32,118 nt of DNA from a bacterium (GCA_900299215.1 OMIY01000217.1:1-32118), one strand, 5' to 3'; counted from the first letter of the stretch, positions 5,969 through 22,532 are shown. The notes: generated by a model from the letters alone, not told the origin. Translations and numbers: made by a program.

Positions 5969-6724
5969 TCAAACTATAAGTCCGCCATCAACATGGATCA
6001 CTGATCCCGTGATGTAGGATGCTGCCTTACTGCTCAGGAACTTGACCACGGACGCCACCTCTGTCGGTTGGCCGTAACGCTTCAAAGGTATCCTCTGCAG
6101 AATTTCGTCACCAGCAAGGGCTCGAATTTCCTTGCTCATGTCTGTTTCAATGAGGCCAGGCGCTACGCAGTTGACGCGAATGTTGCGAGGAGCCAGCTCG
6201 ATCGCCAAAGCCTTGGTCATCGCTTCAAGGCCACCCTTGGAAGCTGCGTAATTGCAGTGCCCGCGCCCTGGTCGTGTCGCTACTAGCGACGAGATATTAA
6301 CGATCGCCCCCTGGCGACGCCTCATCATAAGTCGCGAAACCGCACGGCAGAAGTGAAAAGCTCCACTGAGGTTGGTGGCCAAAACGTCAGACCATGCTTT
6401 TTCTTCCATCGTCATGATCAATCCATCCTGGGTAACGCCAGCATTATTTATGAGAACGTCGATGCGGCCGTACTCCTTTTCAACAACTTCTATGGAATCA
6501 TCGACCGATTTTTCGTCACGAACATCAACCATCATAGCCTGCGCACAAAGCCCCTGGTCGCGAAGCGAGGTCTCTAACTGTCGAGCAGCGTCAGCGCCAT
6601 TGACGTAAGTAAAAACTACCTTTGCACCACTGTGCGCAAAAGCCTCAACCATAGCTTTGCCGATTCCTCGGCTCCCACCTGTGATCACAACCACTTGGTC
6701 GGCAAATTCCAAATTTCCAGTCAC
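5969..6724 (-). CDS. fabG: 3-oxoacyl-ACP reductase (FabG-like SDR)
   Basis: Reduces 3-ketoacyl-ACP to 3-hydroxyacyl-ACP with NADPH. The 251-aa protein has the classical SDR order: cofactor loop TGGSRGIG (residues 15-22), NNAG (93-96), catalytic Ser146 and the YAASK pair Tyr159/Lys163, and the C-terminal [12 protein letters not shown] typical of FabG. The start is the GTG at 6724 because GAAGGAG lies 6 bases upstream and the length then matches FabG; a longer frame to 6799 would add 25 residues unlike the family. It is the first gene of the minus-strand operon, so its promoter lies in 6725-6980, facing the sigma-54 activator gene. It probably serves this operon and not bulk fatty acid synthesis; that is inference from position. 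Confidence 0.88.
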
Positions 6725-6884
6725 AAAGTTCTCCTTCAGGATCACGAATACTGAAATCGGCAGAAGTTGAGCTGATACACCATTTATTGAGTGGTCCACT
6801 GTGCAGAATCCATGCCATGGCTCGACGTGTTGCTAAGTCCCTGAAAATCGGATTCTTCAGAGTAGGAGTTCCGCAGCCATACCT

Positions 6885-6950: not shown

Positions 6951-6980
6951 ATCTCTTATTTGCAGATTCCGGAGCGGTTT

Positions 6981-8747
6981 TTGGAGACCACCCCCACATC
7001 AAACCAGACACTTCAAGTGCCTAATCGAAAGGGCAACTCTAGTATTGGTGATGGTCGTTACGAGCTATGCGAGCTGGTGGGCCGAGGCTCACTTGGGCTG
7101 GTTTATAAAGCCATCGACCATGAACTGAACCGCAGCGTCGCGATCAGCTGCATTTTTGATGTGGGACAGCCGGAAGTACGCGTAAGAACCTTAGCTGAAG
7201 CGAAAGCTCTAGCTGCCTTGAACCATCAGCATGTGGTTCAAATTTATGACATTTTATCCGGTGATGATGGAATATTCGTTATTACTGAATGGTTTGAGGC
7301 GCAGCACCTAGCTGATCTGCAGATGCCCCACTCCCCAAGTGTCGCAATTGCCCTAATGATTCAGATCTACGAAGGACTTGCGGCTGCACATGCAGCCAAC
7401 CTCTCGCACCGCGGTCTCAACGCGGACCTAGTCCTGGTTAGCCCTCAGGGACAGGTCAAACTCATTGGATTTGGCGGGACTTGGCAGCGGCATCGGCCTA
7501 ACGGCAATAATTCAGCCCGTGCGGAACGCAAAGTCGACCGCTCGCCAAGTAGCCACCATCTTAGCAGCTGCTCTATCAAGGGCGATCTCATCGCGGCCGA
7601 GCAATTAATGCATAACCTTGGGGCCTCCTTACTTGGCAAAGCTTCAAGCAGTGCTAGAACGATGGCCAAAGACCTCCGACTACTGCTGACGACGTTAACT
7701 GATGAGGATCCCGCCACTCACATTAGGCGCAACCTGCAGGGTAAAACTACCCATCAGCCTACAGCCACAAAGCGCGCCAACGCTGAACGCTCACGTCTGC
7801 CTGCAGATAGGCTTATGGTGGGCAATTCCGCCGGCTTGCGCGCGGTGTATCAGCTGATCACCAGGCTCGCACCAGTAAATGTGGCAACTTTGATCATCGG
7901 CGAAACCGGCACAGGCAAGGAGCTAGTCGCTAGAGAAATTCACCGATTATCACCGCGCTCTGAAAATCCATTAATTACGGTCAGCGCTGTAGCCATGCCC
8001 TCTGATTTGATTGAAAGCGAGCTCTTCGGTCACAGGCGCGGAGCCTTCACAGGGGCAGTCACTGATCGGATCGGACTTATTGAGAAAGCAGATGGCGGCA
8101 CACTGTTTTTAGATGAAATTGGTGAACTATCACCGGCGGTGCAAGCCAAACTTCTAAGGGTTTTACAAGAGCGAAGTTTCACCAGAATTGGCGAAAACAT
8201 TGCGAGAAAAAGTGATTTTAGGCTGGTCACCGCAACGCACCGCAACCTCCAGGATTTGATCGCCAGCGGAAAATTTCGCGAAGACCTTTATTACAGGATT
8301 GCAGCAGCGACCATTCAGATGCCCCCTCTTAGAGACAGGCGTGAGGATATAGTTCCACTTGTGCAGCATTTCCATCGAAGCTTCACCGAAGAATATGGAC
8401 TAAATCTCAAACGTTGGTCGATGAGCGCCCTTAAGCTTCTCACAGATTTAGCTTGGCCGGGCAACATCCGAGAGCTAGAGCACTGCGTGCGTCGCGCCCT
8501 TGTGATGTGCGACGGTCCCGTAGTGCAACCAAGCCACTTGGATGCCAATCTAAATGCGGGACACTCGGGACTAGCAGGCTCCGACACGGAGCAACCCACC
8601 TTGGATGAGGCTAGAAACGCCTGGATGCGTCGTTTTTTGGAGCATTCCCTGGCGCGTCATAACGGCCGACGCAGCGAGACGGCAAAGGCACTTGGTATTG
8701 GCGAACGTACTCTCTTTCGCTACATAGAACAGTTTGGCATTTCCTAA
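6981..8747 (+). CDS. Sigma-54 activator with N-terminal pseudokinase domain
   Basis: A transcription activator that remodels sigma-54 RNA polymerase using ATP. Counting from a TTG at 6960, residues 33-175 resemble a Ser/Thr kinase (glycine loop VGRGSLGLVYKAID) but lack its chemistry: VAIK reads VAIS (Ser63), HRD reads HRG (Gly152), the metal-binding Asn is Leu157 and DFG reads GFG (170-172). A linker leads to a complete AAA+ domain: Walker A GETGTGKE (314-321), the sigma-54 loop GAFTGA (361-366), Walker B TLFLDEIGEL and the arginine region FREDLYYR. The end is a Fis-type helix-turn-helix, RRSETAKALGIGERTLFRYI. I prefer the TTG at 6981 (CGGAG 6 bases before, giving 588 aa) over 6960, which has no ribosome site; there is no in-frame ATG nearby. 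Two further genes follow almost without gap. Confidence 0.92.
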   Translation: METTPTSNQTLQVPNRKGNSSIGDGRYELCELVGRGSLGLVYKAIDHELNRSVAISCIFDVGQPEVRVRTLAEAKALAALNHQHVVQIYDILSGDDGIFVITEWFEAQHLADLQMPHSPSVAIALMIQIYEGLAAAHAANLSHRGLNADLVLVSPQGQVKLIGFGGTWQRHRPNGNNSARAERKVDRSPSSHHLSSCSIKGDLIAAEQLMHNLGASLLGKASSSARTMAKDLRLLLTTLTDEDPATHIRRNLQGKTTHQPTATKRANAERSRLPADRLMVGNSAGLRAVYQLITRLAPVNVATLIIGETGTGKELVAREIHRLSPRSENPLITVSAVAMPSDLIESELFGHRRGAFTGAVTDRIGLIEKADGGTLFLDEIGELSPAVQAKLLRVLQERSFTRIGENIARKSDFRLVTATHRNLQDLIASGKFREDLYYRIAAATIQMPPLRDRREDIVPLVQHFHRSFTEEYGLNLKRWSMSALKLLTDLAWPGNIRELEHCVRRALVMCDGPVVQPSHLDANLNAGHSGLAGSDTEQPTLDEARNAWMRRFLEHSLARHNGRRSETAKALGIGERTLFRYIEQFGIS

Positions 8748-8750: not shown

Positions 8751-9293
8751 ATGGCGAGAGACCATGAAAACCCAGGATTTAGTAACGCCTTAGCCTTCGG
8801 CGTCCTGGCTATAGTGCTCTTTTCTTTTGGGCTAAGCTTACGGCCCACTACAGTGATAATCCCGGGAGCAAACGCTAGTTTCGCGAACCTAATCGATCGG
8901 TGGTGGGATGAATCATTTAGCGATCCAAAAATGCGATCAAGGTCCTTCGATGAACGCTTTGGCTCTCCCTTCGAAAAATTTCCGATGCGCATTCAATCTA
9001 CCATCGCCAGCATCAGCCTAGGAACATTGGTAACAAAAATCAGCGAGCCGTATTACGGTGAACCCCTAGAAACCGCTGCGCTTGTGCGAAAATTTCCTTT
9101 GATCAAACGGATATCAGTATCGTCGCAGCTGGCAGCAAAAGATGAGCTTTACCAGAGACTTTTTGAGGGGCTTTACCCTGTCCTTGTAAGTGAAGGCACC
9201 GAGAGCAACGCCAAACTTCTCGCTCTTGACGAGCCTACAAACTGTTCCATCTTGGGCCAGACCAAGGAGGCTCAACTTGTACTTTGCCCTTAA
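8751..9293 (+). CDS. Hypothetical membrane-anchored protein
   Basis: I do not recognise this 180-aa protein. A single hydrophobic helix at about residues 12-30 (ALAFGVLAIVLFSFGLSL) follows a short charged N-terminus, so it is probably anchored in the inner membrane with about 150 residues outside. The soluble part has acidic and aromatic stretches (IDRWWDESFSD) and no catalytic motif I can name. It starts 3 bp after the activator stop and its end overlaps the next gene by 17 bp, so the three are very likely cotranscribed. The tight link to the glycosyltransferase-like gene suggests a partner or accessory subunit of it; that is inference only. Confidence 0.7.
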   Translation: MARDHENPGFSNALAFGVLAIVLFSFGLSLRPTTVIIPGANASFANLIDRWWDESFSDPKMRSRSFDERFGSPFEKFPMRIQSTIASISLGTLVTKISEPYYGEPLETAALVRKFPLIKRISVSSQLAAKDELYQRLFEGLYPVLVSEGTESNAKLLALDEPTNCSILGQTKEAQLVLCP

Positions 9294-10650
9294 ATTCTTC
9301 GCCGTTTTTATGGGTCTCGGTTCGCTGTTTTATGTCTCAGGAAGAAGTTTTCTTGGGTGGCGACGAAGCCATTTACCATCGACCGCTTGCGCGGCAGGTT
9401 TGATCCTTAATTTAATCTTTGCCATGCTCACCTCGCACATTGTCGGCGCTATTCTCGCGCAAATTATTTTGGCCTTGGGCTTATGGCTGGCTCAAAGAAG
9501 ACACCCGCCAATCCTGGCGCCAAAATTGACACAGCCAAAATCACACCTGATGTTGGCGGGACTGGTCTTACTTGCATTGGGTTTTCTGATGCTTTGCCTG
9601 GTGGAGCCAATTAAAGATTGGGACGCTCGGTCGATGTGGTTTTACCACGCCAAAGTGATTTACCACATGCAGAGTATTTGGGCTGGAGGCGCCTGGGCTG
9701 AACAAGCGAATATTTACACTCATTTAAATTACCCTAAGTTGTTCCCCTTGCTAGCTGCTGAGGTTGCAACGTTACTAGGCTTTTGGAACGAATTTGCTCC
9801 CAAGATGGCCATTGCTTTACTAGCACTTCCTTTACTTAGTTTTTATGTAGAAGCGTGGCAATGGGATGCTAATCACAAGTTAGGTTCCGCGCTAAAGATT
9901 GCCATGCTAACTTTGCTACTTTTCGGGTTCGACGGATCAGGTTTCTTCCTTTTTAACGGGTATATGGACGGCTGGATTGCACTTTACACATGTTTAGCTG
10001 TCCTGGCTTGGGCACAAAATAGAAACCAGTGGCAAGCTATAGTCTTCTTGTGTTTGCTCACAGAAATTAAGCAAGAGGGGTTAATGGTTGGCGCCATTGT
10101 GCTGATCATCGCCACTTTGTTAGATGCGAAACGTTGGCGGAATATCTTTAAGGGTGAGACTTGGAATAAACTCCGACCTCAACTCATGAGGGGATTTGTC
10201 TTAATTGCACCTGTTTTTGTCTGGCTAATTGCGGTCAAAATTCAAGGTCTATCTAGGAACCATTTTGGCGGAAACACTCTAGAACGCATGATCACCCGAC
10301 TAGCAAATCCGAGTGACTGCATCTGGATAGTGGCCAATATCCTGTTACATAACGCCATAGTCCTACCTGCGTTGCTGCTCTCAGTATTTTTGTCAGTATT
10401 AATTTTCAGGAATAACATTCAAATGCCACTGATAATGGCTCTGCCATCGGTGGCGGCTCTCGCCTACTCAGCCGTGATATTTTGTGTGTATTTGGCGACC
10501 AATGCTGATCTTCATTGGCATATTGGCGCATCGGCAGGACGCGTTGGCCTAACGACCGGCCTACTTTTCTCTACTTTTAACATGTTGGCTATTCAGGAAC
10601 TGGTCCCAAGTAAGCGACGAGCATCGTCGTCACGACCCAACTTCTTATAA
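9277..10650 (+). CDS. GT39/ArnT-like integral membrane glycosyltransferase
   Basis: A 457-aa protein with about ten hydrophobic segments, of the GT-C type that uses polyprenyl-phosphate sugars outside the membrane. The key sign is KDWDARSMWFYHAKVIY near residue 115, the first extracytoplasmic loop, where GT39-family enzymes carry their acidic D-x-D/D-A-x-x-W motif. LTEIKQEGL and HWHIGASAGRV later in the chain also recur in such proteins. The start is the TTG at 9277: AAGGAGG lies exactly 6 bases upstream, while the longer frame from 9190 lies mostly inside the previous gene and encodes a hydrophilic stretch before the first helix. The 3' end overlaps the convergent TPR membrane protein gene by 58 bp. 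The sugar and acceptor are unknown. Confidence 0.72.
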   Translation: MYFALKFFAVFMGLGSLFYVSGRSFLGWRRSHLPSTACAAGLILNLIFAMLTSHIVGAILAQIILALGLWLAQRRHPPILAPKLTQPKSHLMLAGLVLLALGFLMLCLVEPIKDWDARSMWFYHAKVIYHMQSIWAGGAWAEQANIYTHLNYPKLFPLLAAEVATLLGFWNEFAPKMAIALLALPLLSFYVEAWQWDANHKLGSALKIAMLTLLLFGFDGSGFFLFNGYMDGWIALYTCLAVLAWAQNRNQWQAIVFLCLLTEIKQEGLMVGAIVLIIATLLDAKRWRNIFKGETWNKLRPQLMRGFVLIAPVFVWLIAVKIQGLSRNHFGGNTLERMITRLANPSDCIWIVANILLHNAIVLPALLLSVFLSVLIFRNNIQMPLIMALPSVAALAYSAVIFCVYLATNADLHWHIGASAGRVGLTTGLLFSTFNMLAIQELVPSKRRASSSRPNFL

Positions 10651-12461
10651 GTTTCCGCTAAATCGTTTCTGAGATCGCGGTCATAAGGCATCATTCGCGA
10701 TAACACCTCTAGCTCTAAGACAAGCTTGTCCCATTTGGACTGCATTTTAAGTATGCGAATCAAGTTTAATCTGGGCGGTATATCAGTAGGCGCAATACGC
10801 ATTGCGGATCGAAAGTTTTTTTCAGCTTCCTCAAATTTGCCTTGTTTGGCAGCGATGTAACCGAGATTCTGATAGGACATATAGAACTCTGGCGCTAAGT
10901 TTAGAGCTTGATGACAGGCTGCACTCGCTTCATCCCACATTTCACGTCTCGCCAAGGCTCCGCAAAGATTATTGTAGGCAAGTGGATATGCTGGAAAAAC
11001 TGCGATAGCCTTTTTCAGTGCTTCTGTGGCCTCAACCAGACGATTTACATTAATGTAACTGTTACCAAGATTGTTGTGAACCCTGCCCCAATCTGGTCTT
11101 AGGGCTAATGCGCTACTGAAATATTTGATGGAATCGTCCCAACGCTTATTGTTCGCCGCATCGTTACCGAGGCCCACCAGCGCCATAACTCCATTTGGCT
11201 CAACGTCAACGCTATGTTGAAACAATGCTCGTTCATTTGCCCAGTAGCCAACCTGAACGAGACTCAGCAGTCCGCAAAGTAATAGAAATGCGGTGGCAGC
11301 AAACTTAACCTGACTTTCTTTGACTCGGGGCAAAAGCTGTTGAACCTTAGCAAAATCTATCCTGGTCAAAAGAAAGGCAGGGACTGTCATCGCCAGATAG
11401 GCATAGCGATCACAGACCGTTGTCAGAAATTGATTGGAAAACATCATTAGTCCGAGATTTGGCGCAAGTAGCAGAGCAAACGCAATAAGCGATGCAAGCA
11501 AGACTGGAAATCGCCGACGTCGGCGCCATAGATAAATAAGTACCAAGGCTGGAATTAGCGCCAACGCACTTAACAGAAGATTATTAGCAACCATATCGGG
11601 CCGACGCGCATAGTCCACAGCGTAGCCAAATGGGAACAAAATCTTTTGCGCATAGAATAAGATAGCATCGCCTGCTACAAATGGTCGCTGCCACCATGCC
11701 ACTACTGGCAATGGCCCCTCAGGCGCCTGAATACCACTGGTCAGTTTTGCGATGTATCCACCCACGCCTATAGGGATGGCCACGGTTAGCAACGCACGCC
11801 ACCAGGGACGCTTAGCCCAGATTACCGCAAGAAATCCCATCAATACCGGCACCACCACTGCGGCGGGTTTAGCTAAAATGGCGAAAATGGCAAGTGCCAC
11901 GGCAGCCCCATAGCCAACAAGGATTTGTAGAGGTGTTCGCTCTTCCGAAGCTGTCAACTGGCGCAAGTAAACATGCACAGCACTCAATGATAGAAAAGCA
12001 CACAGTAAATCTTTGGCCCCGGTAATCCAACTCACTGCTTCAACCTGCAAGGGATGAAGGATAAAAAACAAGGCCCCAAACAAAGCTAAAAGCTCGGAGG
12101 CTCCAAGCTGGCAAAGTATGAGCCAAAGAATGTAGCCATTGGCAGTATGCAGGATCACATTGCCAAGATGAAAAAAGCTAGGGTTTGGTATTTGCGGAGT
12201 ATTAGGATCTTGTCCGATTCTTGACAGAGCCACACCGCCAGCCCAATAAGAATAGGTTACTGGGATGTAAAGGCCCAGATGGGGCCTTACCCAAAACGCT
12301 CCCAGCTCGTCCCAGCTCAAAGATTGCAAATTAGGATTTTTGACGATGTTTTGATCGTCATCATGCTCAAGGAAGCCGTAGCGTAAGGTCGAACCATAAA
12401 TCGAAAATACTAGCGCTGCCATTAGTAGCAGCACGCGCGGCCGCATTCCCAAAGCCATCAT
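10593..12461 (-). CDS. TMTC-like membrane protein with C-terminal TPRs (paralogue 1)
   Basis: A 622-aa protein: residues 1-415 form many membrane helices and residues 420-622 about six TPR units (for example VHNNLGNSYINVNRLVEATE). The acidic motif HDDDQN (33-38) follows the first helix, where GT-C glycosyltransferases bind the sugar-phosphate donor. HPLQVEAVSWITG (136-148) and DRYAYL are shared with three paralogues downstream. This architecture matches animal TMTC1-4, which O-mannosylate cadherins, and many uncharacterised bacterial proteins. AGGAG lies just upstream of two consecutive ATGs; the second (12458) has the better spacing. The gene begins 23 bp after the class II aldolase-like gene and probably shares its transcript. 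A glycosyltransferase role is likely, but the acceptor is unknown. Confidence 0.83.
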   Translation of the reverse strand: MMALGMRPRVLLLMAALVFSIYGSTLRYGFLEHDDDQNIVKNPNLQSLSWDELGAFWVRPHLGLYIPVTYSYWAGGVALSRIGQDPNTPQIPNPSFFHLGNVILHTANGYILWLILCQLGASELLALFGALFFILHPLQVEAVSWITGAKDLLCAFLSLSAVHVYLRQLTASEERTPLQILVGYGAAVALAIFAILAKPAAVVVPVLMGFLAVIWAKRPWWRALLTVAIPIGVGGYIAKLTSGIQAPEGPLPVVAWWQRPFVAGDAILFYAQKILFPFGYAVDYARRPDMVANNLLLSALALIPALVLIYLWRRRRRFPVLLASLIAFALLLAPNLGLMMFSNQFLTTVCDRYAYLAMTVPAFLLTRIDFAKVQQLLPRVKESQVKFAATAFLLLCGLLSLVQVGYWANERALFQHSVDVEPNGVMALVGLGNDAANNKRWDDSIKYFSSALALRPDWGRVHNNLGNSYINVNRLVEATEALKKAIAVFPAYPLAYNNLCGALARREMWDEASAACHQALNLAPEFYMSYQNLGYIAAKQGKFEEAEKNFRSAMRIAPTDIPPRLNLIRILKMQSKWDKLVLELEVLSRMMPYDRDLRNDLAETYKKLGRDDDARRLLGTSS

Positions 12462-12484
12462 CTGCTCCTAATCTTAGCCCTGCG

Positions 12485-13405
12485 TCAACGTCGTCTAAAA
12501 AGCAAATCATCATCTTGCAAGGTCCGACTTCTGTGTATAAATGCCGCTGATGCAGTCGAAGGCAACTCTGACAATGCTGGACACTCAGCAAATAGAATTT
12601 GATGCGCTTGCCAGAGTTCGTTCACGCACGGATCATCAGAGTGCAAATGAAACTGCTTTTCGGCCTGCCTTTTTACGACTCCCTGCCTAGCTTTCGCGAC
12701 TTCGGAAAGCGCATTTGCAGGGACAAATTTATGCCGACGCGGCCCACCCAAATAGTTTCGCTTTGGTGCAGGCGCTTCGGTAACTTCAGCAATTGAAGCA
12801 CCTCCGAGGTGTTTGAGCAAACGCAGATAACCTAGACGTTCACAGAATTCTCTCTCGACCGCCTGCCAATTTGCGATGATATCAGTGGTCTCAGCCTGAA
12901 GAAGGACCCCGTAATTGGCAATAATAATTGCAGACTTATTGATGTGGAGGCAAATGGAAGTAAACAGATCATTGAGGGACTTAGGGTAAGGAACTATCGC
13001 AACTTCGCCCTGCAGGCGCTCAGACAACCAACATGGCACGTTCATATCATTATTGTGCTCGTGAGCCATGAGCAGTGCAACTAAAGAGGTCAACTCAACA
13101 ACGACGGATCCCGGTAGCAGAGAGTGAACGCTAGCATGGTGACTATCCAACCACTCAGACACCAATGGTTCATCGAGTTGGGTTAAGAGTTTATCAACCG
13201 GAAACTCGTGCCAGCCAAAGTCTGAACTGACCTCAGTAATCCGAACCGCAGGTTTTTTAATCAAAATATTGCGGCCGGATCCTCGTGCATACTTGATTGA
13301 TACATAGCCCGAATCTCCCTGACACCAATGCGGGCACGACGCTCCAACACGTTGTGAAACAGTAAGGAACTCTTGCAACGCTGGGGCGAGCTGATCAGTA
13401 CGCAT
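12485..13405 (-). CDS. Degenerate class II aldolase/adducin-like protein
   Basis: A 306-aa protein whose residues 1-210 resemble class II aldolases (RhaD/FucA/adducin fold). There is an early GDSGYVSIKY, a central SVVVELTSLVALLMAHEH where active aldolases place the zinc-binding H-x-H, and a late IIIANYGVLLQAETTDIIANW matching the usual HGV(V/L)..G.T segment. The zinc histidines appear replaced (VELTS for VxHTHS; ANYGV for GHGV), so metal-dependent aldol chemistry is doubtful. The last 100 residues are basic and polar and I do not recognise them. The start is the ATG at 13405 with AGGA 7 bases upstream; the frame extends to a TTG at 13420. It lies directly upstream of a TMTC-like gene and divergent from the GT2 gene. 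The fold assignment is moderate; the function is unknown. Confidence 0.58.
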   Translation of the reverse strand: MRTDQLAPALQEFLTVSQRVGASCPHWCQGDSGYVSIKYARGSGRNILIKKPAVRITEVSSDFGWHEFPVDKLLTQLDEPLVSEWLDSHHASVHSLLPGSVVVELTSLVALLMAHEHNNDMNVPCWLSERLQGEVAIVPYPKSLNDLFTSICLHINKSAIIIANYGVLLQAETTDIIANWQAVEREFCERLGYLRLLKHLGGASIAEVTEAPAPKRNYLGGPRRHKFVPANALSEVAKARQGVVKRQAEKQFHLHSDDPCVNELWQAHQILFAECPALSELPSTASAAFIHRSRTLQDDDLLFRRR

Positions 13406-13463
13406 AGAACTTCCTGTCAAATCGGTTGCGGTGAAATAAGGGCAATGTTTGGCTTATTGCGAG

Positions 13464-13469
13464 ATTATA
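13464..13469 (-). promoter_or_regulatory. Possible -10 box for the class II aldolase-like operon
   Basis: The minus strand reads a perfect TATAAT here, about 60 bases upstream of the ATG at 13405. The hexamer 17 bases further up (CCGCCA) is a poor -35, so the call rests on the -10 alone. The rest of the 232-bp divergent region 13406-13637 is AT-rich and shows no other clear promoter. Confidence 0.3.
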
Positions 13470-13608
13470 CTAAATTTTTGGCGTAGTGGCGGTGAGAAGA
13501 TACGAATTTTAAAAATACTCGTAATACCAAGTAACCATTAGATAATTCGCGATACCTTATGACGCGCCCAACCTCCTCGGATTTAATCATCCGCCCAAAT
13601 TGACCGTT

Positions 13609-13641
13609 ACATAGGACACGGAGGCTGCGTAAGTCCTATGT
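13609..13641 (+). promoter_or_regulatory. Hairpin enclosing the ribosome site and start codon of the GT2 gene
   Basis: A perfect 9-bp inverted repeat, ACATAGGAC (13609-13617) and GTCCTATGT (13633-13641), would fold the mRNA leader with a 15-base loop. The loop holds GGAGG (13620-13624) and the right arm contains the ATG at 13638. The start codon would be paired while the Shine-Dalgarno is exposed, a layout suited to translational control. Confidence 0.45.
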
Positions 13642-14474
13642 CAGGTTCATGGAAAAACCCACATGAGCACCGCGCGACGTTGTTCAAATCGTTGCGCGAT
13701 CTAGACCTATCGGTCATAGTCCCCGTTTTTAACGAGGCTACCCACATCAAGGCAAACCTTGATCTGTTGCTGGCTGAAGTCGTTCCTTATTTTTCAAAAT
13801 TTGAAATTTTAGTCGTTTGTGACGGCAGTACTGATGGCACAGAAAAAGTATTGAGCTCTTATGTACATCCTCAAATCAAACTGATCTCCTACCAGGAAAA
13901 TCACGGCAAAGGCTATGCAATACGCGAGGGCTTTAAACGAGCTCAAGGTGACTTTGTCCTCTTTATTGACGGTGGAATGGAGCTTCACCCACGCGAAATT
14001 CGTATCTTCCTTGGCCTCATGGAACTATATGATGCTGACGTGGTCGTAGCTTCAAAGCGCCATCCGCAATCACAAATCGATTATCCGACGATTAGGCGAG
14101 TCCTCAGCTTCATCTACCAATTACTGATTCGTTACCTCTTCAAGATGAACGTCACTGACACCCAGGTGGGACTCAAACTATTCAAGCGAGATGTGATAAA
14201 AGCTGTTCTTCCGCATTTACGTCTGGACCGATATGGTGCAGATCTTGAAATCTTAGCACTTGCCCGTGCAGCCGGATTTCAGAGGTTTTTAGAAGCACCG
14301 GTTCGACTTGATTATTTCAGAACCAACTCTCGCCCATTCATTCGAGAGATGCTGCATATTTTTCGTGTCGGAGCTTCGGTGATCCTTGATACACTGCGAC
14401 TCTACTCAAGGATTCGCAAACTAACTATTACAGCACCTTCAACTACTGATAAGAATCATGACATTGCGGCTTGA
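13638..14474 (+). CDS. GT2 glycosyltransferase, polyprenyl-phosphate sugar synthase type
   Basis: Probably transfers a hexose from a nucleotide sugar to polyprenyl phosphate at the cytoplasmic face, like dolichol-phosphate mannose synthase. The 278-aa protein has the GT-A start SVIVPVFNEA (residues 25-34), CDGSTDGT (61-68), GKGYAIREGF (90-99) and VTDTQVGLKLFKRDV, which recurs in DPM1-type enzymes. One oddity is the metal-binding motif, usually DAD or DxD, which reads FIDGGMELHP with only Asp111 kept. There is no C-terminal pair of membrane helices, so it is a short, peripherally bound form. The ATG lies 13 bases after GGAGG and inside an inverted repeat. Its place between clusters of TMTC-like genes makes it the obvious donor-producing enzyme for them; the sugar is not known. 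Confidence 0.88.
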   Translation: MSGSWKNPHEHRATLFKSLRDLDLSVIVPVFNEATHIKANLDLLLAEVVPYFSKFEILVVCDGSTDGTEKVLSSYVHPQIKLISYQENHGKGYAIREGFKRAQGDFVLFIDGGMELHPREIRIFLGLMELYDADVVVASKRHPQSQIDYPTIRRVLSFIYQLLIRYLFKMNVTDTQVGLKLFKRDVIKAVLPHLRLDRYGADLEILALARAAGFQRFLEAPVRLDYFRTNSRPFIREMLHIFRVGASVILDTLRLYSRIRKLTITAPSTTDKNHDIAA

Positions 14475-14500
14475 TCACTTTAGTAAGAGTTTATAGACCG

Positions 14501-15478
14501 ATGAAGACCCCAGCGTTCGTACCACATCCGCTCCTCAAGCATCCACAAGCTCAGACTACGTTTGCTGCTTTCATAGCTAGTCCAGTTAAATTGCAGAGGA
14601 CACTTAGACTGTGGGTTGACATGGGTGATGGCGACTCACTTCTATTAAATGAGGAGCCTGCGGAAAAAGATAGTAGTAAGAAGCCACTGGTAATTTTTCT
14701 GCACGGACTGGGCGGATCTGGCGATGGTTCTCTCATCGTCAGACAAAGCGCGAAGCTAAACGATCTTGGCTACACGGCGCTCAGATTTAATCATCGGGGC
14801 TGCGGCACCGAAGTTAAAGGTAGAGCAAAAAAAATCTACCACTCCGGCAGGACGGATGATCTCATTGGCACACTCAAGTTTCTCGATAAAAGATGGCCCG
14901 GTCGACCCGTATTAGCGGTCGCATATTCACTGTCAGGAAACATTCTCCTCCGTATGCTTGGCAGCACGGACATGAAACAAATCCCAAACCTGACGGCTGC
15001 ACTTGCAGTTTGCCCTCCCATTGACCTGGAGGCCGCATCGCATGCACTTTCAAATCCAAGAAATAAACATATTGATATTTTTTTTAGCCTGCTAGTCACA
15101 AGGCAGGCTTTCGAGCGTGAACGTCTATTGAACCAAAAGCCGAGAGCTAAATTGAAATATGGGTTAACACTTCGCGAATTTGATGAGATCTATACAGCTC
15201 CTGAGGCTGGCTTTGCGAGTCGTCTGGAATACTATCAAAAATGCTCTTCAGCTCCTGTATTACCAAAGATCACACTGCCGACGACCATCTTAGCGGCAAA
15301 AGATGACCCTATCATTCCGGCTGCAAGTCTTGTCGATAAAGTCCCAAGTCACATCACCTTCCGCATGGAGGACTACGGTGGACATGTGGGGTTTTACTCC
15401 GCCAATGTTACAGAGTACGGAGATCGCAGGTGGCTTGATGCCTACGTGCTTGATTGGGTGCAACATAATACTCCCTAG
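14501..15478 (+). CDS. YheT-family alpha/beta hydrolase
   Basis: A 325-aa serine hydrolase of the YheT/ABHD1-3 group, some members of which act on lipid esters. The N-terminal FVPHPLLKHPQAQTTFAAF matches the family signature (F.P...L..PH.QT). The oxyanion region HGLGGSGDG (68-76) and NHRGCG follow. Likely triad: Ser143 in AYSLSGN (the family usually has G-x-S-x-G; here the glycines are partly replaced), Asp268 or 269 in AAKDDP, and His295 in YGGHVGF. I start at the ATG at 14501. A TTG at 14471, overlapping the GT2 stop, would add ten residues but has no ribosome site. It is 26 bp after the GT2 gene, so they are probably cotranscribed, and its stop abuts the convergent TMTC-like gene with no gap. 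Confidence 0.85.
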   Translation: MKTPAFVPHPLLKHPQAQTTFAAFIASPVKLQRTLRLWVDMGDGDSLLLNEEPAEKDSSKKPLVIFLHGLGGSGDGSLIVRQSAKLNDLGYTALRFNHRGCGTEVKGRAKKIYHSGRTDDLIGTLKFLDKRWPGRPVLAVAYSLSGNILLRMLGSTDMKQIPNLTAALAVCPPIDLEAASHALSNPRNKHIDIFFSLLVTRQAFERERLLNQKPRAKLKYGLTLREFDEIYTAPEAGFASRLEYYQKCSSAPVLPKITLPTTILAAKDDPIIPAASLVDKVPSHITFRMEDYGGHVGFYSANVTEYGDRRWLDAYVLDWVQHNTP

Positions 15479-17134
15479 CTACCTACACCACTGTTCTGCT
15501 GGCAACTCAAGACCCAGTTTTCCCCCGAGATATGGGAAGAAGCTAGGTAAATCCTGGTGCTCTGGATAAGCAAACCGTGCCAGACAGGCAATCTCGAAGC
15601 TCTTCTTATAATCGCCTAGTTGCATAAGCGCAAAAGACAACACAACGTACTGGCCACCTATGGTTGACCGCGAATTTGGGTTTGCCAAGATCTGTTCTTT
15701 AGTCAGCATATGACCCGGCATATCACTGGCGACCTCCTGAAACCTGCCCAATTTAACGTAGAGTAACCATTTATCGAGCAGTGTAACTACGTTTGTAGGC
15801 TCTAATCTTTCGGCCTCACGCAGATAAGGTATGCCGTCTTGAAATCGCTCTTCACGCATCGCGATCGCTAGCATACCAATATTGGCACCATAACTTTCGG
15901 GATTAGATGACAACATAGACGAAAACAGAGTCTTATCATTCCGCCAAACAGGCAATCGTCTTAACGTCAAAATTCCACCGATACTACCGAGGCTTATGAC
16001 TAAACAAAGTAACCAGCTCTGAGGCATCCTCGAAGCCAAAGACATGACAAAAACAGCAATTCCAACAAGTGGCAAATACATATAATGATCTGCCACCGTA
16101 GATACATGCTGATAAGCAAACCGCACGATACCGGATGTAGGGGCTAGGGCGATGACAGCAAATGCTAGCGCCGCGATTTCTTTTTTAGTTAATTTTCGCA
16201 ATGCTGCTGCAAATATCGAAGTTGATGTGATTAAGATTATAACCGGCCAGACATACAGTGTTTCGTTAACCATCTTTTCTGGTGTCCGACCATAGTCGAC
16301 AGCCAGATTTAGTGGCCAAAATAATTTTCCAAGGTAAAATCCGTAACTATCCATAGCTACCAAGACGCGTGTAGGCCAGGGTAGATCTGGTACAGCAAAA
16401 CTGATTACTTCTGTCTGAATGTCTTTGGTAGCTATAACAGCCACCAGACCCAGGACTAACCAGGGAACATATCTAACCAGTACGAGACGCCAACTACGAT
16501 GATCCTCTGCTAGTGCCAATAGACCTAAAGCTACTGGCACCACCGCTGCAGAAGGCTTGCATAAGAGCGCGAGAATATATGCCAGCGAGGCAATGATTTC
16601 TCTCCACAAAACCCAGCGTTGAGATAAGCTGTATTGAGCCGCCACCAGAACCAAAAAACAGCAAAGCAAATCCCGTAGACCAGTAACCCAACCCACTGCT
16701 TCTACTTGCAACGGATGCAGTCCGAAAAGTACCCCCGCTAACACGATGGCCAACTTTATTTTCGGGTCTTTCCTCGCATCTCGCGGCACAAAGTTATACG
16801 CAAAGTAACAAACCATTCCAGTATTAACGGCATGGATGACGACATTGAGACCATGAAAAAGTCGCGGATCTGGTGGCTTAATTTGGCTAAATAAAGCGTA
16901 CCAAACTGTATAAACAACAGGAACGAACATACCGACAAAGTGCTCGTACCAAAAGCGCCACCACTCACCTTTTATGAACCAGGGATTCTGTGTGATATTT
17001 TGGTCATCATCCCAGCTGACGAAGTCAAACGTCACAGACCAAGAGTAAACGGCAAAGGCAATTATCACAGGTACTAAAACCGGCCAAAACCTAGTCCAAG
17101 ATTTGGTTGCACGGGCATTTTCAGCCAAATTCAC
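15479..17134 (-). CDS. TMTC-like membrane protein with TPRs (paralogue 2)
   Basis: A 551-aa member of the same family as its two upstream neighbours. The first helix is followed by WDDDQNI (41-47) as the probable donor or acid site. HPLQVEAVGWVTGLRDLL is the shared membrane-domain motif and DHYMYLP the shared later one. The C-terminal soluble part is short, about 150 residues with two or three weak TPR units (for example FQDGIPYLREAERLEP), so it probably presents a different acceptor surface from paralogues 1 and 4. The start is a GTG at 17134 overlapping the upstream stop as GTGA, with AGGAGG 6 bases before. It is the last gene of a four-gene minus-strand operon. Catalytic activity is inferred from GT-C-like motifs. 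Confidence 0.83.
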   Translation of the reverse strand: MNLAENARATKSWTRFWPVLVPVIIAFAVYSWSVTFDFVSWDDDQNITQNPWFIKGEWWRFWYEHFVGMFVPVVYTVWYALFSQIKPPDPRLFHGLNVVIHAVNTGMVCYFAYNFVPRDARKDPKIKLAIVLAGVLFGLHPLQVEAVGWVTGLRDLLCCFLVLVAAQYSLSQRWVLWREIIASLAYILALLCKPSAAVVPVALGLLALAEDHRSWRLVLVRYVPWLVLGLVAVIATKDIQTEVISFAVPDLPWPTRVLVAMDSYGFYLGKLFWPLNLAVDYGRTPEKMVNETLYVWPVIILITSTSIFAAALRKLTKKEIAALAFAVIALAPTSGIVRFAYQHVSTVADHYMYLPLVGIAVFVMSLASRMPQSWLLCLVISLGSIGGILTLRRLPVWRNDKTLFSSMLSSNPESYGANIGMLAIAMREERFQDGIPYLREAERLEPTNVVTLLDKWLLYVKLGRFQEVASDMPGHMLTKEQILANPNSRSTIGGQYVVLSFALMQLGDYKKSFEIACLARFAYPEHQDLPSFFPYLGGKLGLELPAEQWCR

Positions 17135-18744
17135 GGCAACCTCCTAAGTTTATCCTGTAGATCAATCACACGCGAAAGTAGAAAGCGGTACCTTTGGTTG
17201 CTGCTTTCGCCTATTTTTAGGCGGAGATCTTCAAGGGTTTTAATACCGTTAGGGACATCTCCCATTTGCAGCTCTACAAGCGCCAAATTATACCTCAGGA
17301 CCAAACTGTCGTCGGGTCGAGCGACTTTGGCTATGCCATCCTCAAGTAAAGATTTGGCAAGCGGCAAGTTCAGGTACTCAGGATATTGTTTCGAACTATA
17401 AATCGTCGCCAGATTATTAATAGCAAGATTTGCCAAATAACTATCTGCCAGCGAGAGACTCTTTTGGAAATTCGTGATCGCCTGTGAGATTTCACCACGT
17501 TCCTGAAAGGCCTGGCCCAAGTTATTAAACGCTAAACTGCTCTGAGGCACTTTTTGAACGGTGTCACTCCAAAGACTCACGTTATCATGCCAAACCTGAG
17601 TACGGTGAAAACTGGCGAAGGCCAGCGCGGACCCCGCAGTGATAGCAACGGCGACCAGCGCACGTACATTGGTAACTAATGTGCCCATCATCACACCCAA
17701 GGCGATGATAGGAAGATAAAAATACCGATCATTTACAAAATTAATCCGAGGAACCAAATTCATCACTGGAGCAAGACTGAGCAAGAGAAACATAAGCCAC
17801 ACGATTAGATCTTGTCGCCGTCTAAGCCACATAACTGCAGACAGCAAAGCAGCAAATACGGATCCAACTGCCAGCTCCAGCTCCCACCCTCCTGAAGCAA
17901 AGTAAGATGGATAAATAATTGAAAGATTAGTCGGCACAAAAAACTTATGAATATAAAAGCCAATGCTAGTGAGAATCATTTTCGGCCAGCCGACGATCCG
18001 TTCTGGAGTTAGCATGACCGTTCCCAGTTGTGGTACTGCACTGGCATATGCGCTAACGCGCACGAAAACTGCTGCAAGCATAAGTAAACTTGCAATTAGG
18101 TGAAGTCTCCAGTCCTTAGGTATTAGTCTACGCTCAAGAAGACATACTGATAATGCGACCCAAATCGGCAAAAAAACACCATTTGCCTTTGTCATCACTG
18201 CGAGTAGATAGAACCATAGGTAAAGTCCTGACCACAGGAATCTCCTATCTAATGTTTTGCTACGCTGCTCAAATGCAAGAAGAGAAGCTAGGTAGAACGT
18301 TGTTGCTAATAGTCCCTTGCGTTCACTAATCCACGCCACTGATTCAACCTGCAATGGATGCAGCGCAAAAAACAACACAGATAAAACCACTGCAAACTTA
18401 TTTGGCAGCAATCGATTTAACCAGATCCAACACAACACCACGTTAATACAATGGATTAACAAATTGCTTAGGTGTTGCACACTTGATTGGTAACCCGCGA
18501 ATTTGATCTCAGTCCAATAAGACATTAAGGTGATTGGCATGTAATCACCGTTGTAATAGCCAAGGAACGATGCGCGCAACGCCTGAGCGAATGGCAAGCG
18601 TAATATCTCGTTGTCGGTAATTAGCAGGTCATCATCCCATAACACATAGCTCATACCACTAACCTGCCAAAACGTCATGACGACAGCACACAGAATTAGA
18701 ATTAGAGGAATGAAATTCCAACTCGGCGCTAGAGGGCGTCTCAT
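17131..18744 (-). CDS. TMTC-like membrane protein with TPRs (paralogue 3)
   Basis: A 537-aa protein of the same architecture: the first helix, then LWDDDLLI (35-42), the motif HPLQVESVAWISERKGLL, and DRYFYLP further on. ISERKGLL is the form common in bacterial TPR membrane proteins, whereas its three neighbours read TG[LA][KR]DLL, so it is the outlier of the set and probably comes from an older or separate duplication. The C-terminal region from about residue 400 has two or three TPR-like units, the clearest being AFNNLGQAFQERGEISQAIT. The start overlaps the preceding stop as ATGA with GGAGG upstream, and its own stop overlaps the next gene as GTGA. Such strict coupling suggests that paralogues 2, 3 and 4 are made in fixed proportion. 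Confidence 0.83.
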   Translation of the reverse strand: MRRPLAPSWNFIPLILILCAVVMTFWQVSGMSYVLWDDDLLITDNEILRLPFAQALRASFLGYYNGDYMPITLMSYWTEIKFAGYQSSVQHLSNLLIHCINVVLCWIWLNRLLPNKFAVVLSVLFFALHPLQVESVAWISERKGLLATTFYLASLLAFEQRSKTLDRRFLWSGLYLWFYLLAVMTKANGVFLPIWVALSVCLLERRLIPKDWRLHLIASLLMLAAVFVRVSAYASAVPQLGTVMLTPERIVGWPKMILTSIGFYIHKFFVPTNLSIIYPSYFASGGWELELAVGSVFAALLSAVMWLRRRQDLIVWLMFLLLSLAPVMNLVPRINFVNDRYFYLPIIALGVMMGTLVTNVRALVAVAITAGSALAFASFHRTQVWHDNVSLWSDTVQKVPQSSLAFNNLGQAFQERGEISQAITNFQKSLSLADSYLANLAINNLATIYSSKQYPEYLNLPLAKSLLEDGIAKVARPDDSLVLRYNLALVELQMGDVPNGIKTLEDLRLKIGESSNQRYRFLLSRVIDLQDKLRRLP

Positions 18745-20786
18745 GACTTTCCTCCAAGAACTCGAGCAAGTCCTTCTCTAGCGTCCAGTCGATTAGACTC
18801 AATAGCCAGAGCTGCCTTATATGACTCAGCAGCATCGCCAAGTAATCCGCGGCGCTCGAGCACCATCCCTAGATTGACATAAGACGTAGCAAGCCTAGGA
18901 TCAAGTCGGATACCTTCTCTTATCTGCTGCTCTGCCTCTGGATAGCGACCTAAAGTAGCAAGTAATGCGCCAAGGTTTATCTTTGGCGGCACCGCGTTTG
19001 GATCGATAGCAATGGCTCTATGGTAGGCACTTACGGCTGCTTCGGGATCACCGTGGTCAGAGAGAAAGTCGGCGTATATGGTCTGATTTTCGAACGAGTT
19101 GGGCTGCCTATTAAGTGCCTCAAGGTAATAGCGATTGGCGGCGGAAAAGTCTTTAAGTGAGACCATCGTATCACCCATGAGGCGAGCTGTTTCTGCTCGA
19201 CCAGGGAACAAAATCTCAGACTTTAGTAAATAGTTCTTTGCCGCTTCAAATTGCCCTAGACGACTGGCTGTGCGCGCAGCTCCTTCAAGAGCCACTGCGG
19301 ATGGCGCTCCGCTGTTAATGATCTTTTCAAATTGCTCAAGAGCAGGCTCATAAAATCCCTGCCGCTCTTGAGCCAAACCAAGATTGTAGATTCCATCACG
19401 AAACCGAGGTCTCAATGCAAGTGCCGACGTGAATGCCTTAGTTGCGTCGGACCATCTCTCGGAAGCCATGTACCCGGCGCCTAGCGATTGCCAAGCAACC
19501 AAACTGCCAGGATTGCGCGATAAAGTGTGTGAAAATAGGGTATCTGAACTTTTCCAAGTCGCTACTTGCATTCCCGCCAAGATGGAAAAGCCAAGCAGCA
19601 TAGCTGCTGCGATCGAAGCAGCCAGTTGCGGCAATCGATTGAGCGACCAAGCAAAAGACAAGGCGACTCCCAGCATTGGAATATACATATAGCGATCGGC
19701 AACAGTGGAATGACTTTGAAACTCAAACGGAATAAGCCCTAAGACTGGCGATAAAGCTGCCAGGGCAATGCCGATGCCCAACCAATACCCGGATGACCTA
19801 AAATGCCAAAGTGAGAAAAACAAACAGACGCAAAAGAATGCTGCAAACCAAACTTGAGTTTGCTGCAGCACCCATTCAGGAGTTGCTCCATAGTCGATAA
19901 GAAGTCCGATGGGTAGTAGGATTTTAGCTGAATAAAAGCTGATCGCGTCTGCCATCACAAATACGCGACTTGTCAGAGGCACCACTTTAGCGGCTTGCTG
20001 AGATTGCGATTGCCAAGTTAGAAATACGAACGGCATACTCAGAGCGCCCCAGATTGAAATTAGGGCTACTACTCGATGCCAGGGCCACTTTTGGAAAATT
20101 GCGATGACCAAAACCATGAGTGGAACAGCAATGGCTGCCGGCTTCGCCAAAAGTGCAAGCAAAAATAGGATCGTTGCAAGTATGGACCGCAACCAGAACC
20201 GCCGATCGTCAGTACCGATCTTTGTCACCAGATAAACTGCTGGAAGGGCAAAGCTCGCACACAACAGGTCTTTAAGGCCCGTAACCCATGCTACTGGCTC
20301 AACTTGCATCGGATGCAAGGCAAAAAGAGCAGCCCCAAGAAAGACGTAAATCTCACGCCGCAGAAATTTGCGGATGATTGCAGCTACCCACAGGGTGTTG
20401 CATAAATGCAGCAAAATATTCAGGCCATGAAACTTTACTGCTGAGTAGACGTTGTAGCCATCGCCGCTAATACCAACTTGACTGACTTTTGCAATCACAG
20501 CCCACAAGCTATAGGTCACAGGTATGTAAAGCTTGTGAAGGGGAGCTATCCAAAACCGCAGCCAATGCTCCGACCCACTAATCGCAAAATAAGGATTTTC
20601 CGTGACGTTGAGGGCGTCATCATAAGGAACAAAGTCAAAGCTTAAAGTCCGGCCGTAAACGGCTAAAATCCACAGCATCAAAAGCAACGAAGACACGGCA
20701 ATCTTGCCAAGTCGTCGATTTCGACTTGATTTGATGGATTCTCCGACATTATTGATGTTTACTTTAGTCCGAATAGCGTCGCCCAT
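18741..20786 (-). CDS. TMTC-like membrane protein with long TPR domain (paralogue 4)
   Basis: At 681 aa this is the largest of the four. About 30 cytoplasmic basic residues precede the first helix, then PYDDALNV (55-62) at the expected acidic site; the triplet Asp of the others is reduced to two. HPMQVEPVAWVTGLKDLL and DRYMYIP are the shared motifs. Residues from about 425 to the end form around seven TPR units, such as YPEAEQQIREGIRLDP and SYVNLGMVLERRGLLGDAAE. The ATG at 20786 lies inside the last 28 bases of the lipoprotein gene and has only a weak AAGAG upstream. The downstream gene overlaps as ATGA. By analogy with TMTC proteins the TPR part would face the periplasm and bind acceptor proteins. 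Confidence 0.83.
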   Translation of the reverse strand: MGDAIRTKVNINNVGESIKSSRNRRLGKIAVSSLLLMLWILAVYGRTLSFDFVPYDDALNVTENPYFAISGSEHWLRFWIAPLHKLYIPVTYSLWAVIAKVSQVGISGDGYNVYSAVKFHGLNILLHLCNTLWVAAIIRKFLRREIYVFLGAALFALHPMQVEPVAWVTGLKDLLCASFALPAVYLVTKIGTDDRRFWLRSILATILFLLALLAKPAAIAVPLMVLVIAIFQKWPWHRVVALISIWGALSMPFVFLTWQSQSQQAAKVVPLTSRVFVMADAISFYSAKILLPIGLLIDYGATPEWVLQQTQVWFAAFFCVCLFFSLWHFRSSGYWLGIGIALAALSPVLGLIPFEFQSHSTVADRYMYIPMLGVALSFAWSLNRLPQLAASIAAAMLLGFSILAGMQVATWKSSDTLFSHTLSRNPGSLVAWQSLGAGYMASERWSDATKAFTSALALRPRFRDGIYNLGLAQERQGFYEPALEQFEKIINSGAPSAVALEGAARTASRLGQFEAAKNYLLKSEILFPGRAETARLMGDTMVSLKDFSAANRYYLEALNRQPNSFENQTIYADFLSDHGDPEAAVSAYHRAIAIDPNAVPPKINLGALLATLGRYPEAEQQIREGIRLDPRLATSYVNLGMVLERRGLLGDAAESYKAALAIESNRLDAREGLARVLGGKS

Positions 20787-22372
20787 TCTATGACTCTTTG
20801 AGGTGCAATCAATTTACAGTAATTCGCGCCCGCGAATTGCTGAATCACAGCCGTCTTACCTGTGACAAGCTCGGCAGTGTCAATCATCCAGCGATTCTTA
20901 TTCTTGCCATCGACCTCAAAACGAAAGCTACTTGCCACAAATTGCTGACCTGTTGATTTGCGACTGCTTAGGACAACAAATGGACCGAATGTCACACGAT
21001 TTTCGGATTCATTTGATTCTTGTTCTAAATCCCATTTGCTCGGATCTCCAAATTTATCTCCTAGACGCTCTAATTGATTTGGATCAGTGATTAAAGCCAG
21101 GGATGCTTTTATGATCTTTTGATTCATCAGGGCGCAATTTATCGGTGGCTCTACACTTTTAAGTCCAGACTCAGCGACGAAGGCCTCTTGGCTGCGCATT
21201 TTGCATGCCACGGATCGCGGCGACAGGTATCGGTCGCGCGATACATCGGTGATGTTGCGATCGTAGTCGACGAACATTGGAATATGCAGCTTGATGCGAT
21301 CCCCGACCATACTCGCTGAGGACTTGTCAAAGATAAAGGCAGGCTGACTAAGTAAAGTGGAATAAGTTTTGACATCAAAATCCACCTTGGCCCACCCCTC
21401 CCCTTCCAAAGCAAAGGCTTCACGTTGTGTCGATGGACAAAGATTGATTAGCTCTAACTCACTGGCAAAAAATGGCTTTAAAATCTCTTTAGTTTGCGAA
21501 ACCGCCTGTTTGACTAAATTGGCAGCATCGGTTTTAGTTACTGTTGCAACGGCACCATCTTGTGATTGAGTAGCGATGAAATTGACGATTGATTTTGCAA
21601 TAAGGCTCTGCGCCTCCTGATAAGCGATAGCACCATCAATCACATCCCCGTCGGCCGGCATGCCATCAGCGAACTGAGAGTGTTTGACCCCACGCAACAC
21701 AATTACTGGTTTATCAACCAATGCAACTGGATTGCTGGTGGCAAGTTTGTCCATCACGGCGTATTCGCGAGCCATATAGTTGATGCCGGTTAGCCCATCC
21801 AGCTCTCCGCCCAAGGTTAAAACGGGGCGTTCGTAGTCGGTAAGATTTTTTCCGATGACTGGGGTTCGAGGGAGGTAACTGGCTAGCAGTATCAAACCGG
21901 GCAGTTTGAATCGCAGCGGTGCATCGGAGGCAAAGATCCCGCCGGCGCTGTGACCAGCTAGGAACACATGGTTAGTAGCCTGGTCAATTCCACGTTCTTT
22001 CAGATACTTAACTGCCTCATTGACCGCCCCATCGCTCTGTAGTGGGTTTGAAAAGTCGCCAAGAAAGTGGGGCACAAACACCCCTACACTCCCGCCAGAG
22101 GCTTGGACAATCTCACGGGCAAGATTGGTGTAAGCCTGGGGCTTCATGTAGGCGCCGCCAAATATCACTAAGATCGTCCTTGGGTCACCCGATAGGACGC
22201 GCAGGGAGGATGATGTGTCCGCCACTTCAACTGGAACCTCTGTCGGCTTACTGCCCCCGCCAGAAGTTTTGCAGGCTGCAAGCCCTAGAGCAGCCAGCGC
22301 CGTCATCGTCACCAAAAAAATCAGAGCTATGCGACTGCTACCCCAGGATCCGTCAGACTTCGCTACGCCCAT
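20759..22372 (-). CDS. Lipoprotein alpha/beta hydrolase
   Basis: A 537-aa exported lipoprotein. A hydrophobic helix, IALIFLVTMTALAALGLAAC, ends in the lipobox LAAC with Cys34, followed by a Ser/Gly/Pro linker. Residues 60-290 form an alpha/beta hydrolase: VIFGGAYMKPQAY near the oxyanion hole, Ser142 in GHSAGG, Asp192 in GGELDG and His231 in GVKHSQF. The remaining 240 residues are a separate domain I do not recognise. The ATG at 22372 is chosen because GGGGA lies 7 bases upstream and gives a proper signal peptide; a frame from 22411 would add 13 residues without a ribosome site. It is the first gene of the operon that continues with three TMTC-like genes, so it could process or receive the glycan or lipid they handle (inference). 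Confidence 0.82.
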   Translation of the reverse strand: MGVAKSDGSWGSSRIALIFLVTMTALAALGLAACKTSGGGSKPTEVPVEVADTSSSLRVLSGDPRTILVIFGGAYMKPQAYTNLAREIVQASGGSVGVFVPHFLGDFSNPLQSDGAVNEAVKYLKERGIDQATNHVFLAGHSAGGIFASDAPLRFKLPGLILLASYLPRTPVIGKNLTDYERPVLTLGGELDGLTGINYMAREYAVMDKLATSNPVALVDKPVIVLRGVKHSQFADGMPADGDVIDGAIAYQEAQSLIAKSIVNFIATQSQDGAVATVTKTDAANLVKQAVSQTKEILKPFFASELELINLCPSTQREAFALEGEGWAKVDFDVKTYSTLLSQPAFIFDKSSASMVGDRIKLHIPMFVDYDRNITDVSRDRYLSPRSVACKMRSQEAFVAESGLKSVEPPINCALMNQKIIKASLALITDPNQLERLGDKFGDPSKWDLEQESNESENRVTFGPFVVLSSRKSTGQQFVASSFRFEVDGKNKNRWMIDTAELVTGKTAVIQQFAGANYCKLIAPQRVIEWATLFGLK

Positions 22373-22532
22373 GTACGTTCCCCATGCTAATGCCCTCGGG
22401 GGCGGGCTCATCGATGTTGATTGTGATTCATCAATGATAGCGGTTATTTGGGGGATGGTAGAAGCAGGTATTCGATAACCAGCTGAAATCTATGGACATT
22501 ATTCCTGACCTGCAAATTGACGCGATGAGTTT

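Follow-up and report, generated by a model that had tools for sequence, protein, structure and literature searches.

Four predicted GT-C glycosyltransferases homologous to animal TMTCs, and an accompanying GT2 enzyme, encoded in a bacterial draft genome

A stretch of bacterial DNA of 32,118 nucleotides (GCA_900299215.1 OMIY01000217.1:1-32118), referred to here as the window (G000:C217:1-32118) and forming part of a 3.9-Mb draft genome, encodes four related membrane proteins, paralogues A to D, together with a GT2-family enzyme. In our best overall explanation, to which we assign a probability of about 0.55, A to D are GT-C glycosyltransferases of a sister subfamily of the TMTCs, each acting on its own acceptors and drawing on a lipid-linked sugar donor. 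Animal TMTC enzymes attach sugars to adhesion proteins, transferring mannose to Ser/Thr of their targets, and protein O-glycosylation would, judged from sequence, be the most likely function of A to D. The genes concerned are as follows.

10593 to 12461, minus strand: paralogue A, 622 aa; membrane domain and about six tetratricopeptide repeat (TPR) units; acid pair of the first external loop (EL1) encoded at 12357 to 12362.
13638 to 14474, plus strand: GT2-family enzyme, 278 aa, of the polyprenyl-phosphate-sugar-synthase type; DGG at 13968 to 13976; candidate donor synthase.
15479 to 17134, minus strand: paralogue B, 551 aa; DHYMY motif; marginal TPRs; EL1 acid pair at 17006 to 17011.
17131 to 18744, minus strand: paralogue C, 537 aa; most divergent membrane domain of the four; one weak TPR; EL1 acid pair at 18631 to 18636.
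18741 to 20786, minus strand: paralogue D, 681 aa; GT-C-type membrane domain at about residues 18 to 410 and about seven to eight TPR units; EL1 acid pair at 20616 to 20621.

The membrane domains of A to D are mutually homologous (25-34% identity, E 1e-17 to 1e-60). The motifs which a preliminary description of the window had read in the four proteins were found exactly in each of them, namely the acidic DD in EL1 (HDDD, WDDD, WDDD and YDDA in A, B, C and D, respectively), HP[LM]QVE[ASP]V.W (HPLQVEAVSW, HPLQVEAVGW, HPLQVESVAW and HPMQVEPVAW) and D[RH]Y.Y before transmembrane helix 10 (TM10; DRYAY, DHYMY, DRYFY and DRYMY), with the His solely in B. When public genomes were scanned for the pattern with a four-sequence profile, 161 relatives were confirmed; the top-ranking ones came from Planctomycetes, Verrucomicrobia, Armatimonadetes, Myxococcota and Desulfobacterota, among other groups. 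Residue counts were taken from an alignment of 90 relatives, using the numbering of paralogue D. D57, P89, H158 and P159 were invariant in 90/90 and D56 (87/90), E163 (89/90) and Y368 (89/90) nearly so, as were K215, Y285, Y299, D364 and Y366; position 365 is occupied by Arg in 77 sequences and by His in 12. As D57 and the His-Pro pair are invariant and D56 is retained in 87 of the 90, the motifs of A to D are not due to chance, and the acidic site picked out in the preliminary description is thus a conserved one. From the annotation libraries searched, the family receives nothing beyond 'TPR'. Closer comparisons were made with six genomes of the genus (G000 to G005, G000 being that of the window), whose named records are lake metagenome assemblies, and with 52 further genomes of the phylum (58 in total). 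As this phylum has one class and two orders in GTDB, it may be Bdellovibrionota_B/Oligoflexia.

The fold was analysed using AlphaFold models. Full-length D was modelled with a pLDDT of 93.8 and a pTM of 0.91, and compared with the PDB this model gave TPR structures only among the 50 matches listed; the membrane domain of B was therefore folded alone (pLDDT 95.0, pTM 0.94). Foldseek matched the B domain to AftB, ArnT and EmbA at a probability of 1.00, with further GT-C matches to EmbB, AglB, PglB, DPY19, ALG3, Pmt4, PIG-U and AftD. Among the PDB matches listed, all of those with a probability of at least 0.6 were GT-C proteins, while transporter and pyrophosphatase folds reached 0.33 at most. 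Because the Foldseek E-values are weak, the fold claim rests on this uniform GT-C identity of the confident matches; a profile search of PDB sequences with the membrane profile gave no match at E 1. The GT-C fold anticipated in the preliminary description is thus borne out for the membrane domain of B by both the model and its structure matches, and A to D are predicted, with near certainty, to share this enzyme fold. Using the helices of the D model, the content of Lys and Arg per 100 residues was 17-18 in the inter-helix loops predicted to be inside and 4.5-8.8 in those predicted to be outside, and the alternation was without exception. This points to a predicted topology of 11 transmembrane helices and one surface helix in EL4, with the N-terminus inside and the TPRs in the periplasm. 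The same topology has been described for TMTCs (PMC7801869).

The relation to TMTCs was assessed through 20 genomes reached via the relatives and selected because they held matches. When these were screened with PF08409, the Pfam TMTC model, three of the 20 were found to carry bacterial proteins above the cut-off (L127, L128 and L129), and these proteins matched the hidden Markov model of the window family across the whole membrane domain with 155-162 bits. Together with the sub-threshold L130, they gave a profile-profile match (hhalign) to the window family over 389 columns with an E-value of 2.2e-39. The bacterial PF08409 proteins are thus full-length profile homologues of the same architecture, which keep YRP, GRAE, SKE, DYS and AER where the window family has Y.P, an EL2 acid, KP, DYG and DRYxY. 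Animal TMTC1-4 (CAZy GT105; PF08409, TMTC_DUF1736) share with A to D an N-in, 11-helix GT-C domain followed by C-terminal TPRs on the outside. The Asp-Asp of TMTC motif M1 in EL1 is present in each of A to D, its two residues being kept in 87/90 and 90/90 of the family, and they share the HP-x-x-x-E segment before TM4 and the Lys of M4 in EL3. Where TMTCs have motif M7, acid-Arg-x-x-Tyr before TM10, A, C and D have DRYxY, and B and its orthologues DHYxY. Of M3, all four have the EL2 acid, at two alternative positions, and the Arg of RxD is missing from its expected position. The Asp of M5 in EL4 is found in A, B and D, and is followed in the window family by Tyr as opposed to Trp in TMTCs. ArnT, AftB, PglB and Pmt4 are alike in predicted fold and in the idea of EL1 acids acting with a lipid-phosphate donor; they have no detectable sequence match to A to D, and these families are without a TPR tail. 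The PMT (GT39) domains PF02366 and PF13231 and the MIR domain had no match in A to D, and among the 90 relatives PMT_2 was matched weakly in three and MIR in none. TMTC homologues are known to exist among prokaryotes (PMC7801869); our literature search found no characterised bacterial one.

In the mechanism that we propose, A to D would be inner-membrane GT-C glycosyltransferases of a bacterial TMTC sister subfamily. A lipid carrier would receive one sugar, the probable enzyme for this step being a GT2 like that encoded between B and A, and would then be flipped to the periplasmic face of the membrane. By analogy with TMTC and ArnT, the active site would consist of the Asp pair in EL1, the acid in EL2 and the Lys in EL3, with the Arg or His before TM10 holding the lipid phosphate. 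The periplasmic TPR domain would dock a secreted acceptor, with a separate acceptor set for each paralogue, and the acceptors would most likely be Ser/Thr-rich envelope proteins, in some cases giant fibre-like proteins encoded beside other paralogues. The sugar, its flipping, the donor route, the protein nature of the acceptor and the division of labour are those parts of the scheme that we infer. At least A and D are very likely to be active transferases, as predicted.

The putative EL2 acid has two alternative positions, spaced by one turn of a helix. Of 85 aligned relatives, 75 have an acidic residue at just one of the two, and a single sequence has both; the residue is either Asp/Glu at B155 (the G..D form of A, B and D) or Glu at B152 (the E..G form of C). 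On a tree of 113 rows this state changes at least four times, as if a single functional acid had repeatedly changed place. Neither acid is present in 31 of the 113 tree members, many of which are divergent paralogues of the genus, and for this reason acceptor or activity may not be the same in all paralogues.

The C-terminal TPRs attributed to all four proteins in the preliminary description are strong in A and D, with Pfam E-values of 1e-25 and 4e-26 and about six and seven to eight units, respectively, by length and model. In contrast, C has one weak unit (5e-6) and the match in B is marginal (0.04); the C-terminal domain of B aligns to the TPR region of D with an hhalign probability of 85%. 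Between orthologues in four species, the identity of the C-terminal domain exceeds that of the membrane domain (84 versus 66% for A, 73 versus 57% for B, 71 versus 57% for C and 63 versus 56% for D), A being the best conserved of the four. Between paralogues within one genome the order is reversed, with 16-27% for the C-terminal domain versus 27-36% for the membrane domain. Such a pattern would be expected from distinct, maintained binding partners, either acceptors or others. The earlier idea of acceptor specialisation thus gains indirect support from C-terminal domains that are conserved in orthologues and diverged between paralogues, although the same pattern would also be expected if the partners had another role.

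Candidate acceptors were found beside other members of the family. In G004:C49 a paralogue gene adjoins a gene for a Ser/Thr-rich protein (23%), at a distance of 2 bp and convergently, and in G004:C20 a paralogue adjoins another such gene (27% in the stretch read), 32 bp away on the same strand; the orthologous place in G002 holds a fragment of the same Ser/Thr-rich protein. A third paralogue, in G001:C194, lies 218 bp from a gene of this kind. The Ser/Thr-rich neighbours form one family, with a signal-peptide-like start and a shared N-terminal GRL...G.P..GPV domain. The frame at G004:C20:13984-51454 (L182/L183) is uninterrupted over 12,490 codons, and a relative at G004:C18:2-45293 (L187-L189) has at least 15,097 codons and runs off the contig end; both giant frames contain 24-25% Ser and Thr and have the GRL...GPV domain. 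This domain occurs 6-47 times per genus genome versus 0-4 times elsewhere in the phylum. Four adjacencies, three of them independent, were seen versus 0.7 expected by gene counts (P 0.006-0.04). The giant Ser/Thr-rich fibre proteins are candidate acceptors for other paralogues, for which the adjacencies are suggestive only. A 1,516-aa neighbour of a G001 paralogue, also considered as an acceptor, was rejected since it is glutamate synthase.

Several observations weigh against this reading of A to D. PF08409 found no match in the four proteins, in their own genome or in the 90 relatives. Of TMTC motif M2, SHKSYRP in EL1, only Tyr and Pro are left (with Phe in B), and the Glu of the M4 Lys-Glu is replaced by Pro in A, B and D and by Ala in C, Pro being found in most of the family. 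Paralogue C has no EL4 Asp (IIYPS) and has its EL2 acid as Glu in the shifted position, and in B a His takes the place of the phosphate-binding Arg. With the B domain, Foldseek gave no match at an E-value of 0.001 (best 8.5e-3). The adjacency to Ser/Thr-rich genes is only modestly above chance, a pattern found after looking, and no giant gene of this type is present in the window beside A to D. In the GT2 enzyme, an otherwise strongly conserved protein, the second Asp of the DXD motif is Gly (DGG) in 6/6 orthologues, and GT2 genes are rare in family loci outside the genus, where eight were found, five of them within 4.4 kb. With respect to the TMTCs, the window family thus combines full-length profile homology with the failure of PF08409 and the absence of several TMTC motifs (SHKSYRP to Y.P, KE to KP, and ERxxY to DRYxY or DHYxY), and because of this combination it is, by sequence comparison, homologous to TMTC but a separate sister subfamily. 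The TMTC-likeness of the preliminary description accordingly stands as profile homology and fails as strict membership.

The GT2 enzyme itself was correctly described as being of the polyprenyl-phosphate-sugar-synthase type. It matches PF00535 (1e-27), its nearest solved relatives include GtrB/sll0501, ArnC and DPMS, and the GT2 synthases of the GtrB, ArnC and DPM1 types are matched over about 175 residues with E-values of 1e-13 to 1e-9. It belongs to no NCBIfam equivalog, and where GtrB has DADLQ all six orthologues have DGGME. An orthologue is present once in each of the six genus genomes and in 0/52 of the others of the phylum (E<1e-28), so that the genomes with the GT2 orthologue are those holding 12-16 transferase copies. 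Its proposed role as the cluster's own donor synthase is thus favoured by enzyme type and synteny, but since the second Asp of DXD is missing and a GT2 gene is not the usual neighbour in other phyla, it is plausible only, and we consider the chances to be even. GT2 adjacency as a family-wide rule was rejected. A real contender, at somewhat less than even odds, is that the neighbouring GT2 serves another pathway and that a general DPM1-like GT2 encoded elsewhere supplies the donor, which concerns the donor step only and is compatible with our best explanation. Each genus genome has at least one further, weakly similar GT2 that could take this role, and both the DGG of the six orthologues and the TMTC-like genes of other phyla, mostly without an adjacent GT2, would fit it; the strict co-occurrence and synteny of the GT2 with A and B within the genus, however, argue against it.

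With regard to the acceptor, a protein is somewhat favoured over a glycolipid. A to D could instead be GT-C transferases acting on a glycolipid or polysaccharide, such as lipopolysaccharide, capsule or a membrane lipid, with TPRs that dock assembly or export proteins. Such a role would be in keeping with the closest solved structures, which include ArnT and AftB/Emb, modifiers of lipid A or arabinan, and with a cluster around the GT2 in G003 that resembles glycan synthesis loci, and the conservation of the TPRs fits any partner protein. However, the cluster genes of the window include no recognisable O-antigen ligase, polymerase or flippase, a dozen paralogues with different TPRs are hard to explain for one polysaccharide, and the TMTCs, as the nearest characterised relatives by family, act on proteins; we regard this explanation as unlikely. 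It is more improbable still that some or all of A to D are no longer enzymes, their GT-C body binding a lipid-linked sugar or a protein and their TPRs holding periplasmic complexes, as with PIG-U in the glycosylphosphatidylinositol transamidase. The 31 tree members with neither EL2 acid, the loss of the EL4 Asp in C and of the Arg in B, and the presence of PIG-U among the fold matches would speak for this; against it, the EL1 Asp pair, the EL3 Lys and most other site residues are nearly invariant across the family and present in all four.

Family copies number 12-16 in each of the six genus genomes, as compared with 0-2 in the other 52 genomes of the phylum and with four paralogues in animals. 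G000 has about 13 such genes, so that the 'four' of the preliminary description is correct for the window cluster but incomplete for the genome. The family is widespread in bacteria; in other phyla, 1-29 copies were found in the same 20 genomes chosen because they held matches, and 25-29 in three of the genomes checked. An expansion unique to the genus was thus rejected as a general claim; it holds true within the phylum. Most genus copies fall into shared orthologue groups, several of which split as (G000,G004), (G002,G005) and (G001,G003), and therefore much of this increase is older than the split between the genus species. A bacterial O-glycosylation system of about a dozen TMTC-like transferases per genome, with separate TPR readers and with acceptors that include Ser/Thr-rich fibres of 12,000-15,000 residues, is a tentative extension which we hold to be rather doubtful. 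If true, the animal TMTC design would be one specialised offshoot of a system widespread in bacteria. With its defined motif set, the TMTC sister subfamily makes up a named class of candidate bacterial protein glycosyltransferases that is open to testing. The choice of acceptors by TPR domains could be studied there in simpler systems, and the origin of the animal TMTCs becomes a question to be asked.

The arrangement of the cluster also involves the following neighbouring genes.

9190 to 10650, plus strand: multi-span membrane protein, called 'GT39-like' in the preliminary description; no Pfam or profile support for this.
12485 to 13420, minus strand: Aldolase_II-like protein, 23 bp upstream of A.
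14471 to 15478, plus strand: YheT-like alpha/beta hydrolase, directly after the GT2 gene.
20759 to 22411, minus strand: alpha/beta-hydrolase-like protein, upstream of D with a 28-bp overlap.

The D/C and C/B gene pairs overlap by 4 bp each, and D-C-B therefore reads as a single transcription unit, from which A is separated by the GT2 and YheT-like genes on the plus strand and the aldolase-like gene on the minus strand. The order D-C-B, GT2 on the opposite strand and A was found in four species (G000, G004, G002 and G005), between ffh and the orthologue of the 9190-10650 gene, and the gene set is thus conserved together. In G001 and G003 relatives of D and B are still located beside ffh, and in G003 the GT2 and a relative of A lie further along the same contig. 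The surroundings of the G003 GT2 contain genes for an NTP-transferase, a HAD phosphatase, a class II aldolase and other GT2 enzymes. The interval 10593-22372 originally assigned to the locus holds the four paralogues, but it also takes in the unrelated alpha/beta-hydrolase-like open reading frame (ORF) at 20759-22411, which is kept in G004 and was not detected beside the clusters of G002 and G005.

The aldolase-like protein is similar to a PF00596 protein of G003 (E 7e-30), whose HLH is replaced by ELT, and is probably a non-catalytic aldolase relative. Both its gene and that of the YheT-like hydrolase occur at the cluster position only in the window species and the nearest species, and the YheT-like hydrolase beside the GT2 is probably incidental to the cluster. 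The ORF at 9190-10650 had no match in Pfam, including the PMT and other GT-C models, and no profile relation to the four paralogues (hhalign probability 0.3%), and its designation as GT39-like was thus rejected. The protein is nevertheless conserved beyond A in the four species; the G004 copy (L132, G004:C12:53477-54841) has an in-frame TGA and is perhaps a pseudogene or the result of an assembly error. Elsewhere in the window, 6960-8747 encodes a Ser/Thr protein kinase domain fused with a sigma-54 activator AAA+ domain and a Fis-type helix-turn-helix, and 890-6799 holds a fatty-acid/polyketide-type cassette consisting of a male-sterility-type reductase, two ketosynthases, a FabA-like dehydratase, an acyl carrier protein and FabG.

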